In this document: positions 1,850-5,353 of the stretch, in pieces
How the letters are laid out: the number at the start of each line of letters is the position of its first letter
How positions within the stretch are numbered: the stretch's first letter is position 1
Assembly: GCA_029940245.1 (NCBI GenBank)
Contig: JAOZRF010000226.1
Location: 1 to 5,353, forward strand
Direction: 5' to 3'
Length of the DNA: 5,353 nt
Source: Desulfobacula sp.
GTDB lineage: Bacteria; Desulfobacterota; Desulfobacteria; Desulfobacterales; Desulfobacteraceae
The notes under the pieces: generated by a model
The model's input: only the letters and a program-made list of their open reading frames with translations
What the model was told of the DNA's origin: nothing
The model's database searches: none
Position numbers and translations under genes: made by a program

Positions 1850-3946
1850 TTAACGTCGGTTTGCTTTTGCCATTGGAAAATCAGTGTCCGGGTTATAGCA
1901 TATCCTGCAGCAATTCAGGCATCTTTGTGATTCTTTTTGAGCAGCATCTTCCGGCAGAACAAGATCAACTTCAATCATGGAATCAAGCCTTTGAGAAACA
2001 GGAATCTCCGGCATTTTAGCCCGGGCTGATTTCTGGATACCGGGAACTTTTGTAAAAATGGATTCCGGAATTCTTTTTTTCTGTAAGGAATTTTTTACCG
2101 GTTCAACAGGTTCTCCTTTAAGGAAAAGGTCAATGGACCGGGCAGCCCTCCGCCCGCTGCCAATGGCATCAACAACAAGGGCCGGGCCCGTGGCGGAATC
2201 TCCAGCTGTAAAAATATAGGGTATGGAAGCCTGCAAAGTTGCCGGGTCATTATCAATGGTATTCCACCGGGTGAGTTCTAACTGTGTCATTCTTTGATGG
2301 GGGTCCTGTTCTTTAAAGGAAGGATCCGGGGATTGTCCAATGGCAGAGATAACCATATCCACAGAAAGAAGTGTCTCAGAGCCTTCAACAGGTTCGGGAC
2401 GTCGTCTGCCGCTGGCATCGGGTTCTCCCAGTTCCATTTTAAGGTATTCAAGCTGGGTGACCTTGCCGGTGTCATTGCTGATGATTTTTGTAGGGGCTGC
2501 CAGGAAAACAAATTCAATGCCTTCCTCTTCTGATGCAACAATCTCAACTTCATTGGCCGGCATTTCTTTTCTGGTTCTTCTGTAAACCATGTAAACTGTA
2601 TCCAGCCCTGATCTTAAAAGGGTTCTTGCACAGTCCACGGCAGTATTCCCTCCGCCAACAACGGCAGCGGTTTTACCAAGCTTTATTTTTTCACCTCTGG
2701 ACATTCTCTGTAGAAAGTCAATTCCGGTAAAACTGCCATCCAGATCTTCTCCTTTGATCCCAAGTGAATAATCTTTCCATGCACCCACACCCAGGAATAC
2801 GGCCTCATACCCCGAGGCCATTAAAGATCCAAGCCCGAAATCAGCACCGAATTTGACATGGCAGAAAGATTTGATACCAAGATCAAGGATTCCCTGAATT
2901 TCCCAGTCAAGCACTTTTTTGGGAAGCCGGTATTCAGGGATACCGTATCTGAGCATACCGCCAAGTTTTGGCATGGCATCAAAGATATCCACCTTGTGAC
3001 CGATTCTGCGTAAAAAGAACGCACAGGATAATCCAGCAGGCCCGCCACCGATTACTGCCACTTTTTTACCACTGTCCGGAGCACATTTGATGGGGATCCT
3101 GGAACCTGAATTCATTTCAAAGTCTGAAGCAAATCGTTTGAGCTGGTTGATGGAAACCGGTTCATCTTCAATTCCCCTTCTACATTCATCCTCGCAGGGG
3201 TGGGGGCAGACTCTGCCACAGGCAAGGGGCAATGGATTTCTCATGCGGATGGTCTTAACAGCCTCTTTATATTTGCCTTCCTTTATTTGATTAATATATT
3301 TTGGAATATTGATTTCAGCAGGACAGGTCTGGGCACAGGGAGCCAGGGCATCCTGTGTCTGGTTAAATTTCATGAGTTGTTCAGAAAGGGTTGTTACCTT
3401 TATAATATCTTTTGGGCAGGCCTGCTGGCAGGCACCGCAGCCCACACATTTGTCATCATCCACAACAGGATAGCCATTTTGGCCAATTTTAATCGCATTA
3501 AATTGACACGCTTTTACACAATCACCCAGACCGATACATCCAACAGAGCAAACCCTTCTGCCGCCATATACGGAGGACATGGCTTTGCACGAGGAGATTC
3601 CCATATAGTGGTATTTATCATCCGCGCGAAATCCGCCCTCACAATAATTATAAGATAGCCGGCTTTCAGCACTGCCTGCATCCACACCCATTATCCTGGC
3701 AACTTCTTCCACACCCTCTTTGCCCGAAATAACACATACTGAAGGCTTTGCACTGCCATTTACAACGGCTTCAGCAGCAGCAGAACATCCTGCATATCCA
3801 CAACCTCCACAATTTGCACCGGCAAGGTTGTTTTCCACCTGGGCAATTCTCGGGTCTTCATATACATAAAAAATTTTGGAGGAAAGGCTAAGAACAATAC
3901 CACAAACAGCACCGATGCCTAGCATAAACAATAAAGCTGAGATCAT
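1850..3946 (-). CDS. rnfB: RnfB fused to a GltD/NfnB-type FAD and NAD(P)H oxidoreductase
   Basis: RnfB carries electrons from ferredoxin into the membrane Rnf complex. Residues 1-25 are a membrane anchor. C46, C49, C54 and C71 form the RnfB N-terminal cluster domain; C133, C137, C143, C147 and C167, C170, C173, C177 supply two ferredoxin-type [4Fe-4S] sites. Usual RnfB ends near here or adds more ferredoxin repeats (about 190-330 residues). This one continues after a linker of only ~20 residues into a whole GltD-like module: C204, C208, C243, C247, C251, C255 (two-cluster domain); FAD motif GGGPAG at 300-305 and GGMLRYGIPEYRLPK at 329-343; nucleotide motif GGGNTA at 431-436; YRRTRKEMPA at 455-464, whose arginines in relatives contact the NADPH 2'-phosphate; AGD at 581-583. 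The tail has C676, C679, C680, C683. A good Shine-Dalgarno (AAGGTGA) precedes the ATG. It is the last gene of the operon. The domain calls are firm; NADPH use and coupling are inferred. Confidence 0.93.
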   Translation of the reverse strand: MISALLFMLGIGAVCGIVLSLSSKIFYVYEDPRIAQVENNLAGANCGGCGYAGCSAAAEAVVNGSAKPSVCVISGKEGVEEVARIMGVDAGSAESRLSYNYCEGGFRADDKYHYMGISSCKAMSSVYGGRRVCSVGCIGLGDCVKACQFNAIKIGQNGYPVVDDDKCVGCGACQQACPKDIIKVTTLSEQLMKFNQTQDALAPCAQTCPAEINIPKYINQIKEGKYKEAVKTIRMRNPLPLACGRVCPHPCEDECRRGIEDEPVSINQLKRFASDFEMNSGSRIPIKCAPDSGKKVAVIGGGPAGLSCAFFLRRIGHKVDIFDAMPKLGGMLRYGIPEYRLPKKVLDWEIQGILDLGIKSFCHVKFGADFGLGSLMASGYEAVFLGVGAWKDYSLGIKGEDLDGSFTGIDFLQRMSRGEKIKLGKTAAVVGGGNTAVDCARTLLRSGLDTVYMVYRRTRKEMPANEVEIVASEEEGIEFVFLAAPTKIISNDTGKVTQLEYLKMELGEPDASGRRRPEPVEGSETLLSVDMVISAIGQSPDPSFKEQDPHQRMTQLELTRWNTIDNDPATLQASIPYIFTAGDSATGPALVVDAIGSGRRAARSIDLFLKGEPVEPVKNSLQKKRIPESIFTKVPGIQKSARAKMPEIPVSQRLDSMIEVDLVLPEDAAQKESQRCLNCCRICYNPDTDFPMAKANRR

Positions 3947-4008: not shown

Positions 4009-4584
4009 TTAAACCATTCCCTTAAATGACATAAATGTCATTGCAATCATTCCAGCAGTAATAAGTCCGATGGATGTATCCTGCAATGGTTTGGGAACTC
4101 TTGCAAGCAGTATTCTTTCCCTTATTCCGGCAAATAAAATTAATGCCAGTGCAAAGCCGGCAGCATAGGCAAAGGAAGTGACAAGGGCTTCAATAAATGT
4201 ATATTCTTCTTTGATGTTAATCAGACAGACACCCATGACAGCGCAATTGGTTGTGATAAGTGGCAGAAAAATGCCAAGGCCTGCATAGAGGGCAGGAATA
4301 CTTTTCTTAAGAAACATTTCTACAAATTGAACCAGGGATGCGATTACAAGAATAAATGATACTGTCTGCAGATAGACGACATCCAAAGCTTTTAACAGGT
4401 ATTCATTGACAATCCATGTTAAAGATCCGGCCATTACCAATACAAAAATAACAGCCATCCCCATGCCCACGGCGGTTTCCATTTTTTTGGAAGTCCCGAG
4501 AAACGGGCAGTTGCCAAGGTATTGGGCAAGGAGAATATTGTTGATAAAAATACAGCTGATTGCCAGGACAAATAGATCACCCAT
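4009..4584 (-). CDS. rnfA: Rnf complex membrane subunit RnfA
   Basis: RnfA is an integral membrane subunit of the Rnf complex and a paralogue of RnfE; together they form the membrane core through which electrons pass. The 191-residue protein is close to the usual ~190. It is hydrophobic with about six membrane segments (roughly 5-22, 38-60, 68-90, 97-119, 130-153, 170-189). The family signatures are present: NNILLAQYLGNCPFLG at 15-30 and TTNCAVMG at 111-118. C26 and C114 are the conserved cysteines that, with their RnfE counterparts, bind an intramembrane [2Fe-2S] cluster in studied Rnf/Nqr complexes. It starts 15 bases after the rnfE stop and has a strong AAGGAG Shine-Dalgarno in that gap (4593-4598), so translation is likely tightly linked to rnfE. 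A 62-base gap with a hairpin separates it from rnfB. Confidence 0.97.
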   Translation of the reverse strand: MGDLFVLAISCIFINNILLAQYLGNCPFLGTSKKMETAVGMGMAVIFVLVMAGSLTWIVNEYLLKALDVVYLQTVSFILVIASLVQFVEMFLKKSIPALYAGLGIFLPLITTNCAVMGVCLINIKEEYTFIEALVTSFAYAAGFALALILFAGIRERILLARVPKPLQDTSIGLITAGMIAMTFMSFKGMV

Positions 4585-4599: not shown

Positions 4600-5208
4600 T
4601 TATTTTTTCCCGATAAGATTCATCATGCAGAGCATCAGTCCAAGACCGATAAAAGCGCCGGGTGCTTCAATCATGAATTTGAACGGCATAAAGTTGGCGC
4701 CCATTTCAAAAATGGGAGTACCCCCCCAGATGGTCAGGGTTCCATTTCCCAGAATCTCTCTGACAGTACCCAGTGAAGCAAGTGCAAGCGTAAATCCGAT
4801 ACCCATTCCCAGTCCGTCTGCAACGGAAAGAATCGGTGTGTTTTTACCGGCAAAGGCTTCTGCTCTTCCAAGCACGATACAGTTTACAACGATAAGGGGA
4901 ATGAAAATACCCAGTTTCAGGAACAATTCATATGTATACGCCTGCATCAAAAGCTCCACAATAGTCACAAAAGTGGCAATAATGACTACGAAACAGGCAA
5001 TTCTGACTTTTGACGGAATCACATTTCTGAGAAGAGAAATTAAAAGATTGGAGAAAACCAGAACAAAGGTGGTCGCAATTCCCATCCCGATTCCGTTTTC
5101 AACGGATTTTGTTACAGCAAGGGTTGGGCAAAGTCCCAAAACAAGCCTGAAAGGAGGTATCTCAGCCCAGAGTCCTTTTGTAAATTCTTTTGCTATGGAT
5201 TGTGCCAT
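4600..5208 (-). CDS. rnfE: Rnf complex membrane subunit RnfE
   Basis: RnfE is the second paralogous membrane-core subunit and pairs with RnfA in opposite topology. The 202-residue length is typical. Family signatures: GLWAEIPPF at 12-20, LGLCPTLAVT at 24-33, and VVNCIVLGRAEAFA at 107-120. C27 and C110 are the conserved cysteines expected to share the intramembrane [2Fe-2S] cluster with RnfA C26 and C114. About six hydrophobic segments are visible (roughly 20-33, 38-60, 68-90, 97-118, 128-150, 176-198). The start at 5208 is supported by an AGGAGA Shine-Dalgarno nine bases upstream. The gene follows rnfG after a 35-base gap that holds an AT-rich palindrome. RnfE and NqrD are close relatives; the neighbouring RnfB and the absence of NqrF-like sequence point to Rnf rather than Nqr. 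Confidence 0.96.
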   Translation of the reverse strand: MAQSIAKEFTKGLWAEIPPFRLVLGLCPTLAVTKSVENGIGMGIATTFVLVFSNLLISLLRNVIPSKVRIACFVVIIATFVTIVELLMQAYTYELFLKLGIFIPLIVVNCIVLGRAEAFAGKNTPILSVADGLGMGIGFTLALASLGTVREILGNGTLTIWGGTPIFEMGANFMPFKFMIEAPGAFIGLGLMLCMMNLIGKK

Positions 5209-5243: not shown

Positions 5244-5353
5244 CTATTTTATTTGTTTTAATATTTCAGGTTTAAGTGATTGATACAGTTTTTTTGCCTG
5301 GGCTGCTGCAACACAAACTGCCTTCGAGGTAACGGTTGCACCAGACATGGCGA
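5244..5353 (-). CDS. rnfG: Rnf complex FMN-binding subunit RnfG, C-terminal end only
   Basis: The last 36 codons of a gene run in from the right edge and end at a TAG at 5246-5244. The visible peptide starts AMSGATVTSKAV and ends EILKQIK. SGATVTS is the flavinylation motif of RnfG/NqrC-type subunits: the threonine encoded at 5334-5336 is where ApbE attaches FMN through a phosphoester bond. RnfG is anchored in the membrane with the flavin domain outside the cytoplasm and passes electrons between the RnfA/E core and RnfD. Its position before rnfE fits the common rnfCDGEAB order. The N-terminal anchor and most of the domain lie outside the window. RnfD also carries a covalent FMN with a similar motif, but its motif is not near the C-terminus, so RnfG is the better call. 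Confidence 0.9.
   Translation of the reverse strand, partial: AMSGATVTSKAVCVAAAQAKKLYQSLKPEILKQIK

Follow-up and report, generated by a model that had tools for sequence, protein, structure and literature searches.

The 5,353-nucleotide stretch of Desulfobacula sp. DNA analyzed here (GenBank contig JAOZRF010000226.1; referred to as the window) encodes, at 1850..3946 on the minus strand, RnfB2, an Rnf-type input subunit fused to a Stn-type flavoprotein module. On balance, the system to which RnfB2 belongs is probably an NADPH-driven pump whose electrons are likely passed to a periplasmic cytochrome c and not to NAD+. The parts of this proposal that can be read from the sequence are the fusion with its motifs and cluster ligands, intact cofactor residues in the Rnf core, the loss of the flavin mononucleotide (FMN) and NADH motifs from RnfC, and a co-encoded class III cytochrome. 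The fusion itself is already known. Passages of PMC5109826 describe an RnfB of ∼700 residues with NAD+-binding sites, together with an RnfC without NADH domains, in Desulfobacula toluolica Tol2, and another cluster of this kind, which includes a cytochrome, in Desulfococcus multivorans; the system is termed Rnf2, and its mode of action is said there to await verification. A part of PMC11887813 places Rnf2 in the core genome of the Desulfobacteraceae and reports it as abundant and constitutive in six strains. The window locus is a member of this Rnf2 type: its RnfB has ∼700 residues and carries a nucleotide site, its RnfC has no NADH domain, and the cluster includes a cytochrome. NAD+-binding is the published label for the sites, whereas the module is here assigned to the Stn type. 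The first-pass annotation of the window did not know whether the fusion had been studied: it was in print, and no experimental test of its reaction was found in the open-licence PMC literature. This assignment, the counts for RnfC and the cytochrome, and the second paralogue described below are new here.

The rnfB2 frame starts with ATG, contains no internal stop codon, and specifies a single chain of 698 residues with the key motifs intact and the domains recognized by Pfam, which bears out the one-chain fusion of RnfB and flavoprotein first annotated. Residues 1–186 (3389..3946, minus strand, as for all parts of this gene) form the RnfB part, in which an N-terminal helix, judged by eye to be transmembrane and predicted at residues 2–25 in the structural model, is followed by an FeS cluster domain (residues 41–72) and a dicluster ferredoxin domain (Fer4_7, residues 137–181). 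This is the composition of an RnfB, and the product scores 77.5 bits against the NCBIfam model TIGR01944 (cut-off, 68.7). The GltD-fold module occupies residues 198–612 (2111..3355), or 198–683 with its Cys tail, and comprises a two-cluster Cys domain (Fer4_20, residues 202–280) and flavin adenine dinucleotide (FAD) and NADP Rossmann folds (Pyr_redox_2, residues 294–598). Motif searches located GGGPAGL, a GxGxxG motif for FAD (residues 300–306; 3029..3049), GGGNTAVD, a GGGNxAxD motif for NADP (residues 431–438; 2633..2656), a GD motif for FAD (residues 582–583; 2198..2203), and, in combination with alignment, YRR (residues 455–457; 2576..2584). The YRR residues are predicted to contact the 2′-phosphate, a role that we assume to carry over from DPD and NfnB.

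Twenty Cys residues, invariant across 30 aligned sequences of this fusion type, are predicted to ligate five [4Fe-4S] clusters. The putative ligands of three clusters lie in the RnfB half (Cys-46/49/54/71, Cys-133/137/143/147, and Cys-167/170/173/177). The two module clusters would be bound by Cys-204, -208, -247, -251, and -255 and completed by Cys-676, -679, and -683 of the C-terminal tail (residues 660–683; 1898..1969). Five of the “five or six” clusters originally suggested are therefore predicted and a sixth is not; Cys-102 and Cys-120 are likewise invariant and fall outside the five.

The spread of the fusion, a check proposed in the first-pass annotation, was surveyed in 86 genomes of the family, in which fusions like RnfB2 were designated type A and a second fused RnfB paralogue type B; all counts of the two types are lower bounds that depend on draft completeness. 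Type A is present in at least 66 of the 86 genomes at ≥72% identity and type B in at least 57 at ≥53% identity. Among the matches listed, 43 genomes contain both types, 23 only A, 14 only B, and 6 neither; just the module half of type A was found on a contig in G048 and G080. Across 395 sampled genomes of the phylum, scanned at an E threshold of 1e-140, full-length type A at ≥49% identity was found in 30, the source genome included. Of 120 proteins listed, 106 match the rnfB2 product at 79–90% identity over ≥98% of its length, and genome records hold 20 rnfB2-like loci, five of which are cut by contig ends. Best segment identity to Desulfobacula records is 82–88%, and the top match, at 89%, is labelled Proteobacteria only. 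Type A is also encoded in genomes consisting of a single contig, such as G055. The proposal that rnfB2 is an artefact, two genes joined by misassembly or by a frameshift, is almost certainly wrong: nothing was found in its favor, and the intact fusion in so many genomes, single-contig ones among them, led to its rejection and disposes of the assembly error that the first-pass annotation had named as a possible refutation. In G050, a second type A-like frame (C380, 2943–4274; 448 residues, 69% identical, cut by the contig end) is observed besides the operon copy.

By fold score, the GltD-fold module most closely resembles the NADPH domain of StnC, which is non-bifurcating. The fold matches listed span mainly residues 199–646 and hardly cover the RnfB half of the model; the match to StnC and NfnABC extends to residue 680–683. 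Lys-270 (3137..3139) occupies the alignment column of StnC Lys-170 and is Lys in all 30 type A sequences, whereas the NfnB of the source genome has Glu at the same column. In addition, Arg-340 corresponds to StnC Arg-239. As described in a portion of PMC10482914, which also addresses the role of Lys-170, StnC does not bifurcate. In its fold, its FAD and NADP motifs, its cluster ligands, and the Lys at the proximal cluster, the module thus conforms to the GltD/StnC type. With Lys-270 in place of Glu and no NfnA-like partner seen in the operon, it does not resemble bifurcating NfnB, so that of the “NfnB/GltD-type” label first given to the module, the GltD fold stands and the kinship to NfnB gives way to StnC. 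An NfnB-like bifurcation, in which one electron from NADPH would go to ferredoxin and the other into Rnf, is very improbable for this module in light of the Lys, the lack of an observed partner, and the counterpart of the StnC Arg. Instead, the module is predicted to oxidize NADPH by linear, non-bifurcating transfer, and its motifs suggest a preference for NADP over NAD. Loss of soluble Nfn was rejected as the reason for the fusion. The source genome has nfnB on contig C344, next to an open reading frame (ORF) that reads by eye as a putative nfnA, and nfnB is present in 77 of the 86 family genomes. The first-pass suggestion that the fusion might act in place of soluble Nfn is therefore not supported.

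The source genome (G000) is a draft of 566 contigs that is 79.5% complete, and a second contig, C353, carries rnfC, rnfD, a class III tetraheme cytochrome gene, and an rseC-family gene. These genes probably belong to the same operon as rnfB2, because the order rseC, cytochrome, rnfC-D-G-E-A-B, mltG is found in loci L009 and L016. With rnfA, rnfE, and the end of rnfG in the window and rnfC and rnfD on C353, rnfB2 is probably encoded with a full rnfCDGEA set. RnfC was compared in 38 sequences: 34 of the Rnf2 type (19 from operons with fused type A, the source genome included, 6 with fused type B, 8 without rnfB, and 1 cut before rnfB), two from an operon kind termed Rnf3 (L094 and L095), and two canonical. 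L124 gave no RnfC, and L016, L082, and L093 were left out of the comparison. The FMN loop and the acidic motif that follows it are missing from all 34 Rnf2-type sequences, and both are kept in the two canonical ones. In a canonical control of 20 fetched operons from the same family plus 2, RnfB is unfused and the FMN loop present in 22 of 22 and the second motif in 21. Among 11 non-canonical RnfCs, one of them from Rnf3, Pfam agrees with the loss of the FMN/NADH site in 10; the RnfC of the source genome, which keeps 8 cluster Cys residues, scores 18.8 bits for Complex1_51K (cut-off, 31.2) and thus lacks the canonical site. Because these motifs are gone, the NADPH:NAD+ activity that the first-pass annotation had proposed to assay is unlikely. 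Both motifs are absent from the two Rnf3 RnfCs as well, where RnfB is short and unfused, and the idea that the site is lost only with a fused RnfB was rejected; the loss follows the Rnf2 and Rnf3 operon types and is not strictly tied to the fusion. Elsewhere in the core, the cluster Cys residues of RnfA/E are kept in 34 of 34 sequences and the SGAT motif of RnfG in 29 of 29, both sets including canonical ones. The flavin region of RnfD was discarded as a diagnostic, since the controls already vary there between Thr and Ser.

A cytochrome frame, defined as one with at least three CxxCH motifs (mostly four) no more than 2.5 kb upstream of rnfC, is found in 31 of 37 Rnf2-type loci and in both Rnf3 loci, versus none of 22 canonical loci; at L127, 316 bases only were available for this count. 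A cytochrome is accordingly not always present upstream of rnfC.

In the proposed mechanism, NADPH would reduce FAD, which would then reduce the two module clusters and, in turn, the RnfB clusters. From there, electrons would pass singly into the ion-pumping core, with ion export, in the direction RnfB to RnfA/E to RnfG to the cytochrome, or onward through RnfD to RnfC. The exit would thus be from RnfG to the cytochrome or via the RnfC clusters to some carrier. Because ion export accompanies electron flow out of RnfB, electrons donated at the potential of NADPH need a more positive acceptor, and ferredoxin is therefore unlikely to serve as one while ions are exported. The route should also run backward, in which case an ion gradient could drive NADP+ reduction and form NADPH. 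The core of the first-pass proposal, that NADPH is handled at the Rnf entry point and its pool tied to the ion gradient, is supported to this extent.

Several observations weigh against an NADPH-driven pump with a cytochrome exit. At the donor end, the arginine rule for NADP over NAD at the module site is our assumption, and the best fold match, 9bov, is titled as an NAD complex, both of which weaken the case for NADP over NAD. RnfB2 also retains the ferredoxin-like domain of RnfB, so that docking of ferredoxin may persist. In genus g8, some genomes hold the core operon without any RnfB match. With regard to RnfC, the Rnf2-type protein of L118 scores 59.8 bits for Complex1_51K, and the Rnf3 case indicates that motif loss does not need a fusion. 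Both [4Fe-4S] motifs of RnfC are kept in 38 of 38 sequences, and electrons may therefore still exit on the cytosolic side. As to the cytochrome, none lies within 2.5 kb upstream in five loci with fused RnfB (L109, L110, L118, L119, and L121), and the relevant passage of PMC5109826 reports the D. multivorans rnf2 cytochrome from lactate-adapted cells only, other Rnf2 subunits being detected more widely.

The kept RnfC clusters, the five loci, and the restricted detection of the cytochrome would all suit the same NADPH input with an exit through the two RnfC clusters to a cytosolic one-electron carrier, the cytochrome being accessory, as would the U-shaped route of the Acetobacterium woodii complex through RnfD to RnfC described in part of PMC11889175. 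The cytochrome count in Rnf2-type versus canonical loci argues otherwise, no candidate carrier gene was seen in the operon, and the carrier would need to be more positive than NADPH; this exit is considered rather unlikely. Less likely still is that ferredoxin stays the main donor and the module adds ferredoxin:NADP+ exchange, linking the ferredoxin, NADP, and NADH pools, a linkage that a passage in Sci Adv 2025 attributes to Rnf2 and Nfn together. The intact ferredoxin-type domain of RnfB fits this reading, but the RnfCs of all 34 Rnf2-type sequences offer no evident NADH site, and nfnB in 77 of the 86 genomes is already available for ferredoxin:NADP+ exchange.

Type B is represented in the source genome by a second RnfB–GltD fusion without the NADPH motifs (C222, 5–2056; L002, 2–2056); the formate dehydrogenase gene from which it diverges contains an in-frame TGA, likely a selenocysteine codon. 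The motif comparison used 30 type A and 23 type B sequences selected from the rows listed. Type B retains the RnfB half, the cluster Cys residues, including those of the tail, and Lys-270 in 23 of 23 sequences; the expressions for the NADP motif and for YR[RK] match none of the 23, and that for GD matches two. Some type B sequences come near the NADP motif (GGGNASID in L121), and Arg-456 is kept in 21 of 23, so type B may still bind a nucleotide. In a quick, midpoint-rooted tree of the GltD part, type B forms one clade (SH-aLRT 100), and the nearest type A sequences join at 88–91. Outside the family, type B is encoded inside rnf operons (L117, L118, L120, and L125, and, by coordinates, L119 and L121) and is therefore a true RnfB.

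It is tentatively proposed, at somewhat less than even confidence, that one Rnf core takes exchangeable, substrate-specific RnfB inputs, type A for NADPH and type B for electrons from a partner dehydrogenase. In the Desulfobacteraceae, the operon carries type A, and type B is encoded elsewhere. Single-contig G055 follows this placement (A in L060, B in L070), with one full RnfD match and a partial 37% match taken, by reading only, to be NqrB. Single-contig G416 has one RnfD match, with type B in that operon (L120) and type A elsewhere (L112). Type B is present without an RnfD match in G001 (80% complete). Nine loci with sequence beyond rnfA lack rnfB there and have another gene next (L079–L084, L088, L090, and L091), which reads as mltG in eight; in L082, rnfE and rnfA are hidden by the ORF filter, and the gap is too small for rnfB. 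Of the nine genomes with these operons, G061, G064, G066, G049, and G051 encode an intact type B elsewhere; type B is partial in G085 and broken in G070, and no RnfB match was obtained in G067 or G069. The last three genomes speak against exchangeable inputs or point to draft gaps.

Among 13 family loci with enough flanking sequence, nine have a formate dehydrogenase gene near type B (L002, L070–L075, L077, and L078, two other genes intervening in L074 and a single one in L077); the flank of L086 was too short for this count, and the L070 row was seen in part. An in-frame TGA is present in all 10 formate dehydrogenase genes checked, from eight of the nine family loci, L118, and L119. The four loci without such a neighbor (L076, L085, L087, and L089) all come from B-only genomes, which weakens the link to formate, and a constant association of type B with fdhA was rejected. 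At L124, a type B fusion (9536–11383) lies beside a 615-residue NuoE/NuoF-like protein (Complex1_51K, 165 bits), possibly another dehydrogenase partner. Soluble fusions of a ferredoxin part and a GltD module, without a transmembrane or FeS domain, are encoded at L114 (7898–9697), L115 (7858–9657), and L116 (7970–9757); from their sequence starts, the adjoining genes are presumably a 2-oxoacid oxidoreductase and a succinyl-CoA ligase. If inputs are indeed exchanged, Rnf would serve as a modular hub of respiration, switching fuel through the replacement of a single subunit; Rnf2 offers a natural test of swappable input subunits.

The remaining genes of the 5.4-kb contig are arranged on the minus strand in the order rnfG end, rnfE, rnfA, rnfB2, mltG. 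Upstream of rnfB2 are rnfA (4009..4584) and rnfE (4600..5208), both encoding core subunits with a [2Fe-2S] Cys pair, and the 3′ end of rnfG (5244..5353), cut by the contig end and identified by eye, the order being that of L009. On the other side, smr (plus strand) and mltG occupy 123–1769, and the operons of L009, L016, and other loci, some of them lacking rnfB, are flanked by ORFs that read as smr and mltG. An RseC/MucC-family gene (L029, 451–921; 107.6 bits) heads an Rnf2 operon and has the same position in other family loci. In L060, L062, and L063, the ORF filter hid individual rnfE or rnfG entries, and L069 was left out of the listing. The Rnf3 operons constitute a third kind, with a tetraheme cytochrome, an RnfC that lacks the FMN motifs, and a divergently oriented RnfB gene whose short product has ∼292 residues and 28 Cys; their route perhaps leads from ferredoxin to the cytochrome.

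A passage of PMC11887813 credits the Desulfobacteraceae with much of the carbon oxidation that sulfate drives in marine sediments. The reaction of their Rnf2 has so far been unverified; the comparison made here yields a definite claim, namely a pump that is driven by NADPH and releases its electrons to a cytochrome c. Sections of PMC11889175 and PMC9588780 on solved Rnf structures give the electron path as RnfB, the [2Fe-2S] cluster of RnfA/E, RnfG FMN, RnfD flavins, RnfC clusters, RnfC FMN, and NAD+. The window system shares core subunits and cofactor residues with this canonical ferredoxin:NAD+ oxidoreductase of A. woodii and Clostridium tetanomorphum. The nucleotide site, however, is at RnfC in canonical Rnf and at RnfB in the window system, which also has a cytochrome in the operon. 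Rnf genes occur with a multiheme cytochrome c in Methanosarcina acetivorans as well, the likeness of the cytochromes being one of presence only; there, the donor is ferredoxin. The cytochrome, MmcA, is described in part of PMC6703419 as the probable electron acceptor, and its deletion as not substantially affecting growth on acetate.

The large subunit of StnC/NfnABC (8oh5, 9bov, and 9n5u) shares with RnfB2 the GltD-fold domain with a C-terminal Cys tail and, in StnC, where electrons exit linearly, the Lys at the proximal cluster. It is joined to a NuoG/FdhF-like domain, whereas the RnfB2 module is joined to RnfB, with no bifurcating partner seen in the operon. In Na+-NQR, according to a portion of PMC11889175, the reductase is at the input subunit, the RnfC homologue has no nucleotide site, and NqrF is FNR-related. 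With an unrelated flavoprotein at its input, Rnf2 therefore looks like a parallel case, although no paper stating this parallel was found in the open-licence PMC literature. If so, Rnf2 would parallel the rise of Na+-NQR from Rnf, in which the dehydrogenase site is relocated to the input subunit while the one in RnfC degenerates. Neither an NqrF-type reductase nor an NqrA without Fe-S clusters is found in the window system: the two systems are alike in that the input subunit holds the dehydrogenase site and the RnfC homologue has degenerated, with loss of its cofactors in Na+-NQR, and they differ in that the RnfB2 module has a GltD fold, RnfC2 keeps two cluster motifs, and RnfB is retained.
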